Assembly: GCA_029204225.1 (NCBI GenBank)
Contig: MU831993.1
Coordinates: 1 to 64,000 of the forward strand
Origin: Diphasiastrum complanatum
Lineage: Eukaryota; Streptophyta; Lycopodiopsida; Lycopodiales; Lycopodiaceae
Direction: 5' to 3'
Length of the DNA stretch: 64,000 nucleotides
A program made the position numbers and the translations under genes. Under the pieces are notes generated by a model. The model saw only the letters and a list, made by a program, of their open reading frames with translations. It did no database searches and was not told the DNA's origin. The first letter of the stretch is position 1. Each line of letters begins with the position of its first letter. Below, in pieces: positions 44,460-57,658 of this stretch.

Positions 44460-46673
44460 ATGAAAACTGGGCAGGCATTGATTCTGCTCCTGGTCATTTG
44501 CGTGAGTAGTGTTTGGGGTCGCCATGAGAGGGATCGTGAGCGAGGAAGAGAAAGATATAGATACTTTCGGGATTTAGAGCCACGTGAGCCCCGGGAGGAG
44601 TACAGATCGGAGGGGGGAAGTATTGAGTCTTGGGCGGAGGATTATGAAGCCCTTAAGAATGCCAATCTGGGTGCAGCAAGAATTACGTTGAATCCTCGGA
44701 GCTTGGCTCTGCCGTATTATGGAGATGTCGATTTCGTCAAATTCATTACTCGAGGTACTTGCCATCATCCTTGCCTGCTCCATTAGTTTCCTTTTTTCTT
44801 TTCTTTCATTTTTGTGCTTTTTGCATTGGTTAATATGCCGCTCATCACCCATTGAACTATAAAAGGATTCAGATCATTGGAATCTAAGAGAGCCTTTGTA
44901 TTTGGTCATGCGTTCTACGACTTTTTCCTTTTTATAAGTTGGTGGCGAATTATTTTGGTCAGGAAGAGTCTTGTAGATGTTTTAATCTTCACGTCGTGGG
45001 AAACCATTTCATAACTGAGTATTACATATTAACACAAAACTTTATGCAGGATCTGGGAGGCTAGGTATAATTCCCCCTTTTGGAGACAGAGCAATTCAGC
45101 ACAACGTTTACAAGTTGAAGCGCGGAGATGTTGTAGCTATTCCCAAGGGCACACCGACTTGGTTGTATAACGATGGCGATGAAGAGATGGAAATAGTTAC
45201 AGTCGCTGATACCTCCACGGCAACACAACCTGGACGCTTTGGAGTACGTTCTGTCATTTCTATCACGCAATCTCTTACCAGGAATATGCACAGGCAACTT
45301 TTAGTTTGATGTGGGTTTCGCTGAGCTGGAATATGCAGTGTTCAGCTTAGCACGATTACTATATCACATGCATTTTCTAAAGATGTATCAATCAACATAC
45401 CATGCGTACTATTTCAGAAATTTAATTGTGGAGGCTTACCATTTTACTTTCTTCCTTGGCCCTTCTATATCGTGTGTCTGTGGAGCTCTGGTGTTTGCAG
45501 ACCTTTTTGCTTGCTGGTGGGAAGGATAAGGGTCCAGGAAGTGTGCTTCAAGGGTTCAGCGAGGAAATTCTCGCAAAGGCCTGGAACGTGGAGAAGGACA
45601 CGGTGAGTGAATTACTAGAGAGTCAGAATGGAACGGTCTTCATTAAAGTGCTTGAGGGCATCGAGTTCCCAGATTCTTCGGATGATTACAATGGATATTT
45701 CAAGGAGTTTATCTATCACCTTCATGCGGCAGACCCTGACGTGAAAGTTAGAGATGGAGGAGAGCTCAGACTGGTCACCAGTGACAAGTTCCCTGTACTG
45801 AGAATTGTCCACCTTGGTTTGTCTTGCACTAAACTAAGACCGGTAAGATGGATCTGAGCATTTCGGCTTAAATATTTCACAAGCCATGCCATTCGATTTA
45901 AATTCTTCTGACTACTTTCAATTTTGATATTATAGAAAGCTCTCTTCGCACCTAGCTGGTCCCACAACGCACACGAGGTGATCTATGTGGTAAATGGAAG
46001 TGCACGAATTCAAATCGTAGGCTACAATGGTGAACAGGCATTGGACACAAGGGTGAGGGAGGGATCTTTGGTGGTGATCCCTCGTTTCTTTCCAGCTACA
46101 AAACTTGCAGGCAACGATGGCTTTGCTTACGTCTCTTTCCACTCTAATGAAAGGTGGGGATTCACTTTTACCTTTATCGATTTGGATACGCTTCCTTTTT
46201 AAGTGTTATGGTGATCTTTTGGAAATTGCCAGATCTTCCATCCATTCCTCTGTCAATGTAGAGATACAAGGATTATCCTGATCTTAATTTGCTAACAATA
46301 TCTCATGCATTCCTCAAAACTTCCACTGGTCATATCTTTGGACCATGATCTCATGAATATCTGTACTCATAATAATTTTTATACTACCGATCAGTCACAA
46401 AGTTGTCATGATTTAAGTAACTGATAATTCAGGCCAATGCTCATATTTGTGACATGCTTGTCCAACATGCTGATTATATTCAGGCCAATAAACTCCTTTC
46501 TCGCTGGACGCAACTCGGTGTACAAGGGCATCCCAGAGCAAGTGGTCGCTCGTGCATTCAACATAGATGACAAGTTCGAGAAGGATATAAGAGAGCGACG
46601 GAAGGATGAGGCTATCATATTTCCTCCATCCTCTAAATCAGGCAGATATGATCCTCTGATCCAGATTTACTAA
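44460..46673 (+). CDS. 11S-globulin-like secreted bicupin
   Basis: Five exons (44460-44754, 45050-45243, 45501-45842, 45936-46153, 46484-46673) join in phase through GT-AG introns to 412 codons plus stop. Residues 1-20 (MKTGQALILLLVICVSSVWG) are a signal peptide; a short basic-acidic stretch follows. The N-terminal cupin has GSGRLGIIPPFGD and GDVVAIPKGTPTWLYNDGD; the C-terminal cupin has ALFAPSWSHNAHEVIYVVNG, EGSLVVIPRFFP and SFLAGRNSVYKGIPEQVV, the standard 11S globulin/legumin signature. It is shorter than storage legumins (about 450-550) because the variable acidic region is missing. At the acidic-basic junction NG is kept (DYNGYFKE) but the usual EE and the junction Cys for the interchain disulfide are absent. 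No internal stop or frameshift. It probably enters the secretory pathway or vacuole; it may be a non-storage 11S relative rather than a bulk storage protein. Confidence 0.88.
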
Positions 46674-47580: not shown

Positions 47581-48461
47581 TATTTTTTTTTGAAATAGAT
47601 GGGGGTATTATGCTCTTCCAAATTAGCTAAAAAAGTGATGTTTGATCATTGTCTATAAATAGCCAAGTTTTGTATATGCTTGTTTCTAAATGAGCTTACA
47701 CGTTTTGTATTTCTTGATTGTTGGCAAGTTTATTTATTTATCAACAACAACATCATAGTCAATTTGTCATATTATTTATAAAAAGGGAGAATCATAAATA
47801 GATTTTTATGGAATCTACTAAATATAGTTGATGGGACAACGCTAGTCTTCTTCATATTATGGTTAATGGTGTTTTCAAGCTTAATAACACCCAAGGAAGA
47901 GGAGCTATTCACACTTAAATGATTGGAGAACTAGGAATGAACAACATTTTGAACCGATTGGGTTTTTGAAAACATTTAGTATTAGATATAGACAAAATGT
48001 TCATAAGCAAGGTAAACAGCAACCCAAAAAGTCATTTTCAAAAATAGAACCAAGACTATCAGTAGACAACGTAGGGAGGCAGTCCAGTAAGCAATAAACG
48101 ATGTAGCAATATAATTAACTAGAGAGCATGTAGAAAATGCATAGAAAATTTGAAAAACACGTAAGTCAAAAAGTGGAGTAGGGGAACCCTAAAAAACCTA
48201 CTGGTTTCGTAGGTTTCAGATCTTCCATAGCACAAAGAGCTTGCATACATGCCAGAATGTGAGCAAATCCCTACCTTTAGAGGGGGTGTCTCCTAGCAAT
48301 ATGGAGTGCTATAGTGAAAGAACATATGCTCAACAATTTCTTCTTGCAATAGGCAAACTAGGTAAAGGAGATGAGTGAGGAAAGGCCACTTGGCTCACAA
48401 GAGGAGGGAGTTGGAGGTAATGTGATAAGCAAGATAACAAAGTTTGCCCATACGGAGGGAG
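47581..48461. other. Unassigned; possible LTR-element internal remnant
   Basis: No recognised frame. The right end, GGAGGGAG immediately before the LTR at 48462, resembles a polypurine tract, so part of this may be the 3' internal end of a plus-oriented element. Confidence 0.35.
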
Positions 48462-48765
48462 TGTCATGTGCTGTATGTAATGGGCCCATGAGCTTATTAA
48501 TTAATTACCAAAATAGCCATGGAGCTAAACTAGACTAGAATTAGAATTGTTAATAAAAAGGCGTAAACAACCACGCCACATTTGTATTGGCGGGAATTAT
48601 AATAATGGTTGTAAGGCCCAAATTTAAGTAATAAGGCCCCAAATATTAACTAGAGGCACTAAAGACCCACTATAAATAGAGGAGGTCGTGCTAATTTGGA
48701 GTCTATTCTACTTTATGATTTTTGAACTTTTGGTGATCTTGAAGCTTCTCTTCATCAGATTCAAA
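48462..48765 (+). repeat. Partial LTR of the TR-GAG family, plus orientation
   Basis: It starts TGTCATGTGCTG and matches the reverse complement of the LTR at 52390-52952 (CCCATGAGCTTA, ATAGCCATGGAGCTAAA, ATGGTTGTAAGGCCCAA). It includes a TATA box CTATAAATAGAGG near 48671. Similarity fades near 48765, so the LTR is truncated. Confidence 0.7.
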
Positions 48766-49644
48766 AATCAACTTTAAAAAAAATACTAAATCGCACATGT
48801 GGGCGCCAAAGCTCAAAACCTTTCCTTTGAATTCGCGAGAAAACGTAGGGCACAGGAGGAGGTTTGCTCCTCTTCACGAATTCCTCTGCGACTTCACGAA
48901 TTCCCCCGCGACTTCTTCATGAATTCCTACAAATTCTGCCCATAATTTCCTCTCCAAGTACGAATCCAGGCACAAATTCTAGCAAATACCCCCTTCGCGA
49001 ATTCTTCGACCTGCCCCTTTTTATCTGCAAATACTCCTTTGTAAATTCTTCACGATTTCTTTGACTTCCCCTTCCTGTCCGTGAATACCCTGCTCGCAAA
49101 TTCTTCCTCCATTGACCTGCCCCCCTACTCGCGAATTCTCGCGAATCCTTCACGAATTTCAGCCCACACCTCACGAATACCCCCATTCTTTTTCCTCCTT
49201 CCTCATCAACGTGCCTGAAAAAAAATAAATAAAGATAAAATTAAAAACATTTAAAAAAAAAACTACCGTCAATTTCCATAATTTTTCATTTCGTCATCAT
49301 TATTTGTTATTTTTAATATTTTTATAGGACCCCTTATTTCTTAACTTGTTCCCATTTTATACTACATTCTTTTAAAATTTTTCATATCACTTCCATGTGA
49401 CATTAGATTTCAATGTTGTAAAAGGGAAAAAGTGGTCATTACGTTGAGTTCAATTAAATGGCACCGAAAATGAAAATGCCAAGTCATACAATCAATTGTA
49501 CAAACTGATATCTGTATTCAATAAAATATCACCCAAATTTGGGAATTTTTTACAACTGTGCAAACAATTCTTTTTCTGTATTCATTATATGTTGGTATTT
49601 CATTGTATGTCTATATTTCTATATCAATATGAAACTATGTATAT
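48766..49644. repeat. GAATTC-rich degenerate repeat and AT-rich DNA
   Basis: Between about 48828 and 49160, CACGAATTC, CGCGAATTC or close variants recur about ten times at 15-50 bp spacing in C-rich sequence. The rest, to 49644, is AT-rich and without a recognisable gene. Confidence 0.6.
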
Positions 49645-50572
49645 CTATTCATCTTGGGTATTTACAAATTCCCCAGTCTCATTTAGAATCTGAACATAAC
49701 CTGGCTTAGAAGACCCAGCAGGAGTCTTTGGTCCAGTAGTTGATCTGACCAGTAGACTAAAGATAAGCTCCTGTCGAAATCTGTACACTTCGCCAGCTAT
49801 ATAATCACGGAGGGCAAACTGCAATGAACAATATATTAGATGAATATTATTAATAAACAATATATAACATGAAGATTAAAGAGAAAGGAAACTAATTAAC
49901 TCGCCTTTAAAATATCAACATCCTCTTGAAGAATGTACCACTCAAAAAATAATTTGGCATTGTAAAGAATACACCATGCATAGCTAAATGAGTCATTTTG
50001 TTAGGGTGTCTGCAGTACATTCAACTGATTAATAATGGGACGAAGAAACTTACACTAAACAATGATGATAAACAAAAATACGTAAGAAATGTTCAATGAT
50101 TACCTCAATGCTTACAATTTCACATGCCCCTGCCATGGGATTCTCTATTGAAAAATATTTACAAATAGCCGGCAGCAGCAAGTCAGTATCTTTATGTGTG
50201 TTACGAGCGAAATTCATCTTGAAACAAAAAAGATTTACTACATTATTTGCAGTTTTTTTTACAGAGACTACAGTTAAACTCCAGTGATCACTGCAAAAAC
50301 AAAGAAAAATTCCATTAGATATATGATATAGTGATTACAAGTAAAGAAATAAACATACTTGGTATAATAGGGCATCAACAAAATCTTCACAGCTGGTAAA
50401 CATGCACCAAGGAGACAGTGTGACAAAGTTTTGTTGTCGTCCTTGATGGCCTGCAGAAAAAAATTGTTGAGAAGTGTCAATTCATTCATTGAATTTCTCG
50501 CAATATCAAATTGTAGTAGGGGCAGACCCGTCTCTACACTGGATCGCTGATAGAAACCCTTCTGTCCTTCAT
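49645..50572 (-). pseudogene. Ulp1/SENP-like (C48) protease remnant, four exons
   Basis: Exons, minus strand: 50572-50359, 50290-50104, 50009-49905, 49818-49645; phases match, introns have AG acceptors and GT donors (one GC at 49904). Key blocks: ILLMPYYTNDHWSLTVV across the first junction (the catalytic-His motif of Ulp1 peptidases), QNDSFSYAWCILYNAKLFF where Q..DCG..... is expected, and VYRFRQELIFSLL resembling the C-terminal FRxxL helix. The catalytic Cys position appears to be Tyr (SYAW for xCGx), the Asp is not identifiable, and a TAA lies just before QND. The final exon ends at TAG 49647-49645. Ulp1-like domains occur in SUMO proteases and in many plant transposon proteins (for example Mutator-like and CACTA). 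It was probably once a cysteine protease, now inactive. Confidence 0.6.
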
Positions 50573-50619
50573 CTGAATACAGTCTAGGATTATAAAGTTA
50601 AGAGTAAAACCAATTTCTT

Positions 50620-51378
50620 CTATTTGGAAGAGAATTGGTAGCTGATATTATCTATAACATCAGATATATCTTTCTGAAATTTTAAATAATCATTCGAATC
50701 TATATATAATATAGGTTTGAGATTAATGGGAGGGGGGAGAGGAATAGTATTCACAATGGAGGGGATGTCCAAAATTTTTGTGGCTGAATCAACCACAGTA
50801 TCTAAGGCTAGTGGATTTACAATTGCATCACCTCCAGATGAGGAATGTTGGAGGTCCATGCATCGGACCTTTTTAGGTGCTTGAGCAGAGGATTTCTTGC
50901 TCCTTTTAGGGAAATGTTGCTTGCGAGGCCTCTTTGTGAGAATGTTAGTCCTGTCAATGGGTTTGTCCTTGGGAGTAGAGGGTTCACCCTTGTGAAGTTT
51001 ACAGAATCTCTCCCTCATTCTATACAAAATTTGAAAATCTTTGGGCATTATGGTGACCCGCTTAGCATGGATTGAAATCAAAAAAGAATCTTCAAAAAAA
51101 CATGCCAAATAGTCCTTCACGGACTCCTGCAAGCACTGTAGTGCTCCAAGTGCGAACCTAACAAGACTTTGCAGACTATTCCTGGTAATCAGACGGACAG
51201 TTCTGTAGAAAGGGGCTCTTGGTATCAGGAGTAAGGTGGATCTCTGATATTTCTTAATCTCAGAGAGCCATCTGCTCCTGTTAAGCCTGGTTTGTCGTGG
51301 TGGATTCACAGTAGGAGTACTTGTCGATAGAGTGCCAAGAGAGAAGAAATCCGTCCAGTTCTGTTTGACCCTAGACAC
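50620..51378 (-). CDS. Histone H3-fold protein with long C-terminal extension
   Basis: A 252-codon open frame with ATG at 51378-51376. Residues 40-122 align over the whole H3 histone fold: EIKKYQRSTLLLIPRAPF (alpha-N), then LQCLQESVKDYLACFFEDS (alpha-2), then IHAKRVTIMPKDFQ (loop 2, nearly identical to H3). The segment between alpha-1 and alpha-2 is one residue longer than in canonical H3, as loop 1 often is in CENH3, but there is no Trp there. The N-terminal tail (39 residues) has none of the canonical ARTKQTARKS marks. Residues 123-252 form an extension unknown in H3, with a basic Lys/Arg-rich segment (about 148-171) that could be a nuclear signal. It ends with TAG at 50622-50620, 47 bp before the Ulp1-like exons on the same strand, in another frame. 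It may be a CENH3/H3 derivative carried or domesticated by a transposon. Confidence 0.8.
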   Translation of the reverse strand: MSRVKQNWTDFFSLGTLSTSTPTVNPPRQTRLNRSRWLSEIKKYQRSTLLLIPRAPFYRTVRLITRNSLQSLVRFALGALQCLQESVKDYLACFFEDSFLISIHAKRVTIMPKDFQILYRMRERFCKLHKGEPSTPKDKPIDRTNILTKRPRKQHFPKRSKKSSAQAPKKVRCMDLQHSSSGGDAIVNPLALDTVVDSATKILDIPSIVNTIPLPPPINLKPILYIDSNDYLKFQKDISDVIDNISYQFSSK

Positions 51379-51700
51379 CAGGATAGTATCGATTTTGTAC
51401 GCAGTTATAGTAACAATGATGAGAAGAGGATAACCAGGCTTGCAGAGTTGTGATATGTACTAATGTATCGGTCTTGTGCGAGGGTCGACAAAGAAAAAAA
51501 GTAGCGAATGAGGTAACGACGCACAGAAGCGAAATGTACGGTCGTAGTATCGCTCTTGTGCGCACGTAGAGAGATGAGGCGATGAGGGAGCAAACGGGAC
51601 ACGCAGAGAAGCTATGTGACACGAAAATCAGATGAAAAAAAAGTGAAAATGACCTCTACGCTCGTGACCATGTGCCCTCGGATTTCGCACGTGTGGTCAC
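51379..51700. other. Upstream of the H3-like frame
   Basis: Possible promoter region of the minus-strand H3-like frame. CGCTCTTGTGCG and CGGTCTTGTGCG recur, about 85 bp apart. No TATA box or coding match was identified. Confidence 0.3.
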
Positions 51701-52245
51701 ACGTATGATCCAAACCATTCAATCAACAATTGCCACATGGCATTCACACGTGGTGTAATGGCCATATTCGGTTAAGGACCTGGAATAGTCCTAATATGGT
51801 AGACCGGCCCTCCGGTATTCGAGATTGTTGGTCACGCCATGATTTAATTTCATGTTAAGGCCAGTTTGTGACTAATAACCTTGAGAGGACCCAAACACTC
51901 TAATTGAGACATATGGAGTATTGCATGTACGTGTGACGGGTATAGGCAAGAGGACTGCATGAAGGAATGTGATCTATTTATAGTTGACCTGCATGAGGGT
52001 TGCATGGTTTCATGCACAGGACTCTACTCTTTATATAATGAGGTAGGGATTCTCCCATCGATATATTGGTTTAGGTTACCAGTTTCTCTCTTCTCCTCTT
52101 GCTTCACATGGCATGGCTTGGGGGCTAGATCCAGGTTTGATCTAGGAATGGTTGGGCAGTTTGGCTCCATAGTCTCTCTTATTGTGTTCTCCTATCCTCA
52201 TCTTAGGGGTTATCCCTGTAGGGTCCTTACATTGGTATCAGAACC
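51700..52245 (+). repeat. LTR with primer-binding site, truncated element
   Basis: TGGTATCAGAACC at 52233-52245 is a tRNA-Met-type primer site preceded by ...CCTTACA, a typical LTR end, and TTTATATAATGAG at 52031-52043 is a TATA-like box 190 bp earlier. The LTR start is uncertain (somewhere between 51700 and 51830). The internal region is cut at 52389 by the TR-GAG 3' LTR. Confidence 0.6.
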
Positions 52246-52389: not shown

Positions 52390-52952
52390 TGTCATGTGCC
52401 AACCTTAGCATTCAAACATCTAATCCATTCATTAAACATCAAATTACAATGGGAAATGCAAGAAATTAAAAAACTAGTCAAAAATCAAGAAGATAGCTAA
52501 AATTAACAAAACTTCACCAAATTAGGCAAAGTAAGGTATCTTTATTCATGATTATTGATCATTCACAAGATAGGGCCTAATTCTAGAGCATGATCATAGC
52601 TCTCATGTGATTTTAGGCACATGAACCACTTTCTTCATCAAGAAAGCTCTCAAAGAGAAGCTCCAAGATCTCTTAAAACTCAAAATTACAAAATGAACAA
52701 TAGCCTCCAAATTTAGCACGACCTCAGCTATTTATAGTGGTCATTTGTGCCTCTACTATAAGTTTGGGGCCTTGTTTAGCTACATTGGGCCTTACAACCA
52801 TTTCTACAATTCCGCTATTCTCAATTATAGCGAGGTTGTCCAAACCTCTTTATTAACTGTCCTGTTGACTAGTTCTAATCTAATTTAGCTCCATGGCTAT
52901 ATTTGGCAATTCATTAGTAAGCTCATGGGCTATTTACATGCAGCACATGACA
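52390..52952 (-). repeat. 3' LTR of TR-GAG element
   Basis: 563 bp with 10-bp terminal inverted repeats, CAATG..AAATGCAAG near the left end and TATTTATAG near 52731-52739 as a TATA-like site. The 260 bp at its left end match 57399-57658 with only a few differences, so the two LTRs are near-identical. Confidence 0.85.
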
Positions 52953-53491
52953 CTTCCCCTACTTTAAGCATTTTTGCCCTCAAAAATGAAGACCATGTAG
53001 TCCTTTGTTAAGTGCCATGTCTCGTTAATCCTTTGGCGGTAGTTGAGAAGTATTTGGCCACCTTGAATAAGAAACATCTTTTCTTGTATTATTCTTGTCA
53101 GTAGCCATTTACCATTTAAATTTGGTTTCCTCAGATTCAACTTCCAGCTTATTGTTGTAGAACAAGATTGCAACGAGTTTTCTTCATAGAGAACCTTTGA
53201 TCTACAACTGATCCTATAGAATTAATAAGATCACTGAAGAAGAGATTGATGAAACACAGGAAAGCCTCAAGTTGCATTAGTTCTGTATGGGTTGACAGGA
53301 TCCAAACAACAAGACATTCAATAGTCTTCTTCCTTAGTATCTTCCTTGATTGGATAGGCTATCCAATTCTAGATGCGTCTTTTCTTGTCCTTGCATCCAG
53401 TTTTGTTGCCTTGTGCATTGCTCCTTGATGTAGGATCACAATATCCTTTTGTGACTCCAAAGCGTTGATTAAAGCAATGATTTCATCCAAG

Positions 53492-57398: not shown

Positions 57399-57658
57399 TG
57401 TCATGTGCCAACCTTAGCATTTAAACATCTAATCCATTCATTAAACATCAAATTACAATGGGAAATGCAAGAAATCAAGAAACTAGTCAAAATCAAGAAG
57501 ATAGTTAAAAGTAGCAAAACTTCACCAAATTAGGCAAAGTAAGGTGTCTTTATTCATGATTATTGATCATTCACAAAATAGGGCCTGATTCTAGAGCATG
57601 ATCATAGCTCTCATGTGATTTTAGGCACATGAACCACTTTTTTCATCAAGAAAGCTCT
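57399..57658 (-). repeat. Truncated 5' LTR of TR-GAG element
   Basis: Begins TGTCATGTGCC (plus reading) and matches 52390-52650 nearly base for base until AAGAAAGCTCT at 57658, where unrelated sequence begins. Confidence 0.85.

Follow-up and report, generated by a model that had tools for sequence, protein, structure and literature searches.

A DNA transposon family in the genome of Diphasiastrum complanatum encodes a single protein, in which a tail derived from that of histone H3, an H3 fold, a basic linker and an Ulp1/C48-type domain follow one another, and whose gene consists of four exons. Copies of the family number well over 100 in the genome, and the H3 part of its protein is under purifying selection. 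The DNA analysed here, called the window, is a stretch of 64,000 nt (assembly GCA_029204225.1, contig MU831993.1, positions 1–64,000, forward strand), and includes a truncated, decayed member of the family.

The copy in the window

The initial annotation of the window had described a frame with a full H3 fold and a basic extension, followed on the same strand by four Ulp1-like exons down to position 49645, and had suggested that either two genes abut or one ancestral gene has decayed. The basic extension after the H3 fold is real, and so is the series of exons, the limits of which were transferred to the window from the gene model of a better-preserved copy, L027. The features of the window copy are as follows.

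49475..51752, minus strand: transposon fragment of ~2.28 kb with homology to family A (blastn), both element ends absent
51271..51378, minus strand: N-terminal tail, derived from the H3 tail and reading VSRVKQN... in this copy, start codon gone (sequence)
51004..51270, minus strand: H3 histone fold with αN, α1, L1, α2 and α3 (Pfam, PDB H3 chains, alignment)
50707..51003, minus strand: basic linker (sequence and alignment with other copies)
50359..50706, minus strand: beginning of the Ulp1-like part, its frame broken in the window; in other copies it lies in the same exon as H3
50104..50290, minus strand: exon 2, with DHWSL (His) and an FKMNF block (KMNS in other copies; Asn)
49905..50009, minus strand: exon 3, with the QNDSF block, Gln retained, one stop
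49645..49818, minus strand: exon 4, terminating at a stop codon

The frame at 50620–51459 of the minus strand is open for 279 codons and contains the complete H3 fold, which is confirmed by matches to the Pfam family Histone (E = 2.3e-21) and to H3 chains of solved nucleosomes in the PDB (E ~2e-19). GTG is found at 51378, the place occupied by Met in eight other family-A copies. In exon 3 the catalytic Cys is replaced by Tyr, and the donor site is GC, not GT. Pfam gave no match for four window frames spanning the end of exon 1 and exons 2 and 4; the Ulp1-like character of these exons was borne out by L027 (see below).

The H3 and Ulp1-like parts of the window copy are out of frame with each other. 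The stop and frame change between them, as first described, are genuine, and were found in none of the 10 other copies in a junction alignment of 11 copies that included the window; L013 and L020 are also broken at the junction, but differently from the window. The frame of L009 (contig C19) is broken at the same place as in the window, but L009 duplicates the window locus at 99.6% identity and was therefore not counted as an independent copy.

Comparison with L010 and L011 by blastn covered the stretch 49475–51752 of the window at 86%. A 305-bp inverted repeat (48457–48752 and 52653–52957) that flanks the copy was considered as the terminal inverted repeats (TIRs) of the element and rejected, as relatives match 49475–51752 only and the real TIRs differ in sequence. 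The arms of the 305-bp repeat adjoin an LTR-like direct repeat (52390–52650 and 57399–57658). The window also contains a cupin exon (Cupin_1, 8.3e-16, Pfam), which we take to be legumin-like.

One gene in other genomic copies

The genome searched was that of the window itself (1.745 Gb, 5176 contigs), in which the H3 part as query gave at least 151 matches. The sequences read were 20 copies of 9.9 kb, 18 short copies, and one canonical host H3. Among the long copies L010/L011 and L015/L016 are near-duplicates, and L009 duplicates the window.

A single frame connects the H3 fold with the Ulp1 part in 15 of 21 sequences (the 20 long copies and the window), nine of the 15 being stop-free; it is broken between the two parts in the window, L009, L012, L013, L018, and L020. 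The short copy L058 also has one frame from H3 to Ulp1. L027 and L022 are free of stops through all four exons, which are separated by three introns, bounded in L027 by GT and AG in each case. The spliced L027 protein of 470 aa, the one spliced form scanned against Pfam, matched both Histone (1e-27) and Peptidase_C48 (1.1e-10), and its C-terminal part alone matched PF02902 at 2e-11 (44.6 bits, cut-off 20.7). Its matches to Ulp1-type proteases in the PDB were weak (6.5e-4 and 1e-3).

The first exon of L027 (331 aa) was further used as a query against the genome. All 121 places listed cover the H3 part, the linker, and the start of the Ulp1 part, each including at least residues 12–314; 24 of them are stop-free and 97 have stops. 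Since only the best candidates were scored, 121 is a lower bound and is biased toward good copies; it includes L027, L022, other copies that were read, and some near-identical duplicates. The corresponding exon of family G (364 aa, L055) gave at least 120 matches, 32 of 120 covering residues 1–364 in one block, and eight of these 32, L055 included, are stop-free.

The separate frames seen in the window are what two genes that merely abut would give. For the ancestral gene this reading is refuted by the single frame in 15 of the 21 sequences and by the presence of both parts in every one of the 121 listed matches, and its probability is close to nil. The same 121 matches contradict the idea that the H3 frame was inserted by chance beside an unrelated protease gene, and the joined frames support the other proposal of the initial annotation, that one gene combining H3 with a SUMO-protease domain has since decayed.

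Families and phylogeny

At least five families were distinguished by their H3 sequence (A, B, E, F, and G), four of which (A, B, F, and G) also showed the Ulp1 part. The window belongs to family A. Family E is represented by one copy (L050), in the 1.6-kb stretch of which no Ulp1 exon was recognised, and family G by one copy read (L055). Two further groups were designated C, consisting of H3 sequences with a proline-rich front and showing no Ulp1 within 1.6 kb, and D, a single divergent copy (L045). The αN helix opens with Trp in all except D, with Leu in L054, and LIR of H3 is replaced by LIP in most copies, the exceptions being L024, L043, L045, and L054.

In a tree of the stop-free copies and outside H3 sequences, families A, B, E, F, and G stood apart from groups C and D and from the host and outside H3s with a support of 92. 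Family E was separated from A and B with a support of 97, and F grouped with G with a support of 66. It is likely that H3 was captured once. The gene structure is preserved across the diverged families A and B, and the frames are joined in F and G.

The histone H3 part

An H3-type fold with an extended αN is present, as judged by the Pfam Histone match of 1e-27 and matches to H3 in the PDB. The tail of L055 (family G) begins with MARTKQTAR and so matches H3 over its first nine letters, Met counted. Three tails of family F begin with MARMKQTTR, MARTKQTVR, and MARKKQTAR, and those of family B with MD[RK][RK]K[QH]TRR, two of the B copies having an internal stop. Family A tails are mostly MSRVKQN-x-R, and that of family E is MARTESTAR.

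K4 is present in 23 of 24 tails, a set that includes near-duplicates, the exception being family E (L050) with Glu at this place. R2 and R8 are retained in most tails, and T6 is replaced by Asn in most of family A. None of the 24 tails has lysine at the K9 position. Residues 6–31 contain three lysines in all 24 tails combined, versus five in the tail of the one canonical host H3 read, which has seven lysines besides K4. The transposon tails thus do not carry the canonical set of K4, K9, K14, K18, K23, K27, and K36; beyond R8 they cannot be aligned with H3, and hence the ‘loss’ of K14–K36 means that nothing corresponds to these residues there.

In the core, I51, F67, L92, H113, K115, V117, and M120 do not vary among the 25 copies compared, and R69 and R83 are retained in 22. 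R63 is replaced by Pro in 23 of the 25, and Q85 is altered in all of them. This count omits the window and the near-duplicates L011 and L015, and includes copies with stops. An H3 part with many core residues retained may enter nucleosomes or bind H3 chaperones, and the changes of R63 and Q85 indicate that some DNA contacts differ.

Structure prediction for the first exon gave a useless model with alignment A1 (pLDDT 37). A low-confidence model of the H3 part obtained with alignment A2 (pLDDT 62, pTM 0.36) showed four helices, and its best Foldseek match was nucleosomal H3 (E 1.3e-5, rmsd ~12–25 Å). Because of this large rmsd and the presence of canonical host H3 in the alignment, the model adds little.

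The Ulp1-like part

His in DHW or KHW and Gln and Cys in PQQNDSF[SN]C, residues of a C48-type active site, are found together with a conserved MNS block in most copies of families A, B, F, and G, with one or other residue lacking in single copies; Cys is gone in the window, L019, and L058. The place of the active-site Asp is taken by Asn of MNS when aligned with yeast Ulp2 and by Lys when aligned with yeast Ulp1 and 6dg4, and catalysis is therefore uncertain. A Cys-His-Asn arrangement, as in papain, is possible.

Selection on the gene

Pairwise dN/dS values were calculated by the NG86 method for each part of the gene. The start of the Ulp1 part proved to be less constrained than the H3 fold. 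For the H3 fold of family B compared with L027, they were 0.07 (L019), 0.11 (L024), 0.13 (L025), 0.11 (L023), and 0.24 (L021); two further B pairs, L021/L024 and L025/L021, gave 0.30 and 0.17. The tail of these seven pairs gave 0.21–0.57, the linker 0.28–0.67, and the Ulp1 start 0.21–0.57. Thus, the H3 fold has the lowest dN/dS of the four gene parts in seven of seven older B pairs.

Other H3-fold values were obtained for the window/L016 (0.10), L016/L010 (0.17), and L053/L059 of family F (0.22), as well as for two pairs of group C (0.18 and 0.20), L019/L020 (0.32), and L021/L022 (0.35). Between families A and B dN/dS was 0.12 at a dS near 2. In the comparison of transposon families the synonymous sites are mostly saturated, the pN/pS values being 0.27–0.52.

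The recent pair L022/L027 gave a dN/dS of 1.0–2.1 in every part, which indicates that late copies decay neutrally after insertion. In L019/L027 dS is uneven, 0.56 in H3 and 0.08 in Ulp1, and such unevenness along the gene in some pairs suggests recombination or exchange between copies.

The carrier transposon

Four family-B copies were extended with their native contiguous upstream 10 kb. The elements of L022 (9,305 bp) and L027 (8,681 bp) both end in inverted repeats CATTAGAGGAGTTCTCAATATCAAAAAGACCC..., giving the termini CATTAG...CTAATG, and the TIRs are ~35 bp long. The right end alone was seen in L019, L020, and L026, and the left end alone in L023. A 32-mer of the TIR, with up to 3 mismatches, has 1177 + 1240 = 2,417 matches in the genome, as compared with 0 + 0 for the reversed control. 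A diverged right end with 6–8 mismatches is located at the expected place in family-A copies L010, L011, and L014. In the window no TIR was found by a scan tolerating up to 9/32 mismatches, and a single stray match with 9 mismatches appeared in L025 in the same scan. The terminal inverted repeats looked for are thus present around full-length relatives and absent around the window copy. Copies of families F and G were covered over 1.6–1.8 kb.

Insertion sites were studied by joining the flanks of an element and searching the genome for the empty site. The joined flanks of L022 match 40 scored places, 35 at exactly the same length, and the counts were 39 of 40 places for the TIR pair C2:29743085 and 16 of 19 places crossing the junction for the TIR pair C1:48368841. 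The latter two pairs were taken from the listing of TIR matches, their interiors being outside the sequences read, and L022 is the informative element whose H3-Ulp1 gene was read. A joined empty site was found neither for L027 nor for the pair C1:20721697. Insertion therefore proceeded without target duplication, 0 bp in all three informative tests of the five tried, contrary to the target duplications that had been anticipated.

Three further genes were recognised in the element: one, transposase-like, has the orientation of the H3-Ulp1 gene, and two lie on the opposite strand. All four copies that were extended upstream have the transposase-like sequence along with the fusion gene. The motifs of this sequence are D, D with C(2)C, H(4)H, and E, and all five occur in four of 21 sequences scanned (L018, L019, L020x, and L023x); the motif patterns were written after inspection of the sequences, and many of the non-matching sequences lack the region or do not cover it. 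No Pfam family exceeded its cut-off for any gene of the element except H3-Ulp1. The best sub-threshold score was that of TnsA-like N (0.003) for the rightmost gene; for the transposase-like protein the best Pfam score was 0.014, to an unrelated family, and the PDB gave no match. The MULE (MURA) profile was not found among the element ORFs tested. In viral contigs, 17 stretches matched the search pattern, none of them a relative.

Given the motifs of the CMCT group (CACTA and kin) and the CA..TG termini together with the lack of a 2–5 bp duplication, the element is described as CMCT-like and is not filed in CMCT. A carrier that combines CACTA-like motifs with insertion without target duplication may represent a new transposon lineage. 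Of the exact TIR matches on contig C1, 83 were listed, and the best 6-Mb stretch holds 27 of these, a number reached in none of 2000 random placements.

Possible function of the H3-Ulp1 protein

H3K9me2 is the mark tied to silencing of plant transposons. The features of the tail, core, and Ulp1-like part would best be explained if the protein were a chromatin-directed factor that counters silencing, an explanation to which we give a little less than an even chance. The H3 part would enter nucleosomes through H4, or would bind H3 chaperones. The retained K4 end could be used by activating readers or writers, and the tail, which lacks K9 and has hardly any other lysine, could not receive H3K9me2; lysine would be missing at this place because it would permit that mark. 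The Ulp1-like part might remove SUMO from silencing proteins, or hold it, where the histone is deposited, and transcription of the element and access for the transposase would then follow. VANC proteins, which counteract silencing and some genes for which carry Ulp1, provide a precedent (PMC13317346, in the part consulted), and other transposons are described in the consulted part of a second source as carrying SET or TET genes (PMC12730594). Several observations speak against this explanation: the uncertain catalysis and weaker constraint of the Ulp1 part, Glu at K4 and no recognised Ulp1 exon in family E, Asn at T6 in most of family A, the neutral-looking pair L022/L027 and the stops in 97 of the 121 listed copies, the uneven dS, and the altered R63 and Q85.

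A more specific proposal, which we advance tentatively and hold to be rather less than even, is that a transposon lineage with a CACTA-like carrier has its own H3 variant, with the K4 end, no K9 mark, and an Ulp1-like domain, and thus deposits silencing-resistant chromatin on itself. If so, it would be, as far as the open-access literature shows, the first mobile element that fights silencing by a histone and not by an enzyme or DNA-binding protein. A natural separation-of-function H3, with K4 kept and no K9, would also provide a probe for what H3K9 methylation and SUMO contribute to silencing of plant transposons.

The fusion could instead serve transposition itself, the H3 fold pairing with host H4 or binding DNA and tethering the complex to chosen chromatin, and Ulp1 acting as a SUMO-binding arm or processing a transposition protein. 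Such a role would agree with the presence of a transposase-like sequence beside the fusion gene in all four upstream-extended copies and with the strong clustering of the TIR matches listed for C1. However, segmental duplication or slow removal of copies from heterochromatin would produce clustering as well, and tethering needs neither retention of K4 nor absence of K9; a role in transposition is accordingly rated as somewhat unlikely. An origin of the H3 part from CENH3, by which the element would be directed to centromeric chromatin or exploit it, is improbable. Most copies have LLIP where H3 has LLIR, and loop 1 exceeds that of H3 by one residue in families A and B and by four in F, both of which resemble CENH3; but loop 1 has the length of H3 in families C, E, and G, and the tree, which contains one plant CENH3, keeps the transposon H3s apart from it. 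Moreover, L055 has MARTKQTAR, and CENH3 tails are not known to follow this sequence beyond MARTK. The host CENH3 was not recognised: an Arabidopsis CENH3 query best matched canonical H3 (59%), the examined rows being canonical H3 and transposon-like copies.

Passive capture, in which a host H3 and an Ulp1 gene would have been trapped and multiplied as functionless cargo, perhaps like H3 in a fungal hAT element, is disfavoured and is assigned a very small probability. Transposons do commonly capture genes (PMC13317346, part consulted), H3 has been captured in fungi (PMC6710886, part consulted), most of the 121 listed copies (97) have stops, and the pair L022/L027 looks neutral. Against this stand the dN/dS of 0.07–0.30 for the H3 fold in seven older B pairs, the maintenance of one gene structure in A and B and of joined frames in F and G, and the retention of K4 while most of the tail changed.

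Comparison with known systems

No description of a histone-Ulp1 fusion in a transposon was found among titles and abstract openings in the open-access literature, and the main text of a 2026 review on plant gene capture never uses the word ‘histone’ (PMC13317346). The nearest relatives in content are Kaonashi and KIU of the VANDAL MULEs, kin of VANC, in which, as here, a plant DNA transposon has an accessory gene with a C48/Ulp1 domain. These are non-TIR MULEs, whereas the element described here has TIRs and no MULE transposase profile, and the consulted parts of the sources mention no histone part in them, whereas here Ulp1 is joined to H3 (PMC13317346, PMC6117577). Similarly, the oomycete transposons CryptonF and CryptonS include a C48 peptidase in a DNA transposon; they are tyrosine-recombinase elements, with no histone part mentioned in the portion of the source consulted, in contrast to the fused H3 here (PMC3212892).

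A hAT transposon has captured H3 in Pseudocercospora and its relatives, and H3 is also amplified in Pyrenophora, where many copies are potentially active; there, as here, H3 has been multiplied by a DNA transposon (PMC6710886, part consulted). No fusion is mentioned in that part of the source, and the P. fijiensis copies are RIP-inactivated, in contrast to the selected chimera with an altered tail described here.

As to the carrier, the CA..TG termini and the D, D, C(2)C, H(3-4)H, E motifs are shared with CMCT, the members of which differ from the present element, with 0 bp in three insertions and no Pfam transposase match, by a duplication of 2–5 bp (PMC12730594, part consulted). Spy/PHIS, like the present element, has TIRs and a 0-bp duplication (PMC4482050, part consulted) and belongs to the Harbinger relatives with 0, 2, or 3 bp (PMC12730594, likewise). 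It differs in this kinship, since the present element has CACTA-like motifs instead and no Harbinger-type Pfam transposase match.

Transposons with Ulp1 domains, anti-silencing proteins, and fungal capture of H3 are already known; a transposon-encoded H3-Ulp1 fusion kept by selection was not found in open-access print. Genes for epigenetic marks are also aboard other elements, with SET methyltransferases in HarbingerS and MuDR of Phytophthora and TET/JBP in fungal transposons (PMC12730594, in the part consulted). Those genes encode enzymes, whereas the element described here encodes the histone substrate itself, which suggests that a histone can serve as a weapon in the contest between host and transposon.

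Possible exchange between fusion-gene copies and distribution of the terminal repeats

Comparison of the first exon of the fusion gene in two family B copies, L019 and L027, gave a dS of 0.56 for the H3 fold versus 0.08 for the Ulp1 part. This uneven divergence suggests gene conversion or recombination between elements.

Among the matches listed, exact matches to the CATTAG...CTAATG terminal inverted repeat (TIR) of the carrier transposon were clustered on contig C1 of the same genome (G000) at 64.9–66.7 Mb and 95.0–100.7 Mb, which hold 15 and 26, respectively, of the 77 merged sites on C1. The following pair, known from its ends alone, is perhaps a short non-autonomous derivative.

G000:C1:47860002-47862593: TIR pair, 2.6 kb spacing

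Surroundings of the copy in the window

Features in the window
45936-46202, + strand: Cupin_1 exon fragment (8.3e-16)
52390-52650 and 57399-57658: direct repeat, 261 bp, 96%

The Cupin_1 fragment resembles a legumin/11S seed globulin. The direct repeats are probably the LTRs of a retroelement; a primer-binding-site-like TGGTATCAGAGC adjoins the second repeat copy, and an inverted stretch at 48457-48752 is related to sequence adjoining the first.

Other H3-fold sequences

A further repeat encoding an H3 fold, family C, was represented by L041-L044, L046-L049 and L057. In most of the copies read, the fold is preceded by a long proline-rich N-terminal part and the frame stops shortly past alpha-3. 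Over the 1.6–1.75 kb read per copy, nothing recognisable as a Ulp1 part came to light. One divergent H3-fold frame, L045 (Histone, 4.3e-30), lies outside all other families; it may represent either a variant H3 of the host or a further case of H3 capture. L051 is the sole canonical host H3 whose full sequence was read; it combines signature residues of plant H3.1 and H3.3, namely A31, Y41, S87 and L90.
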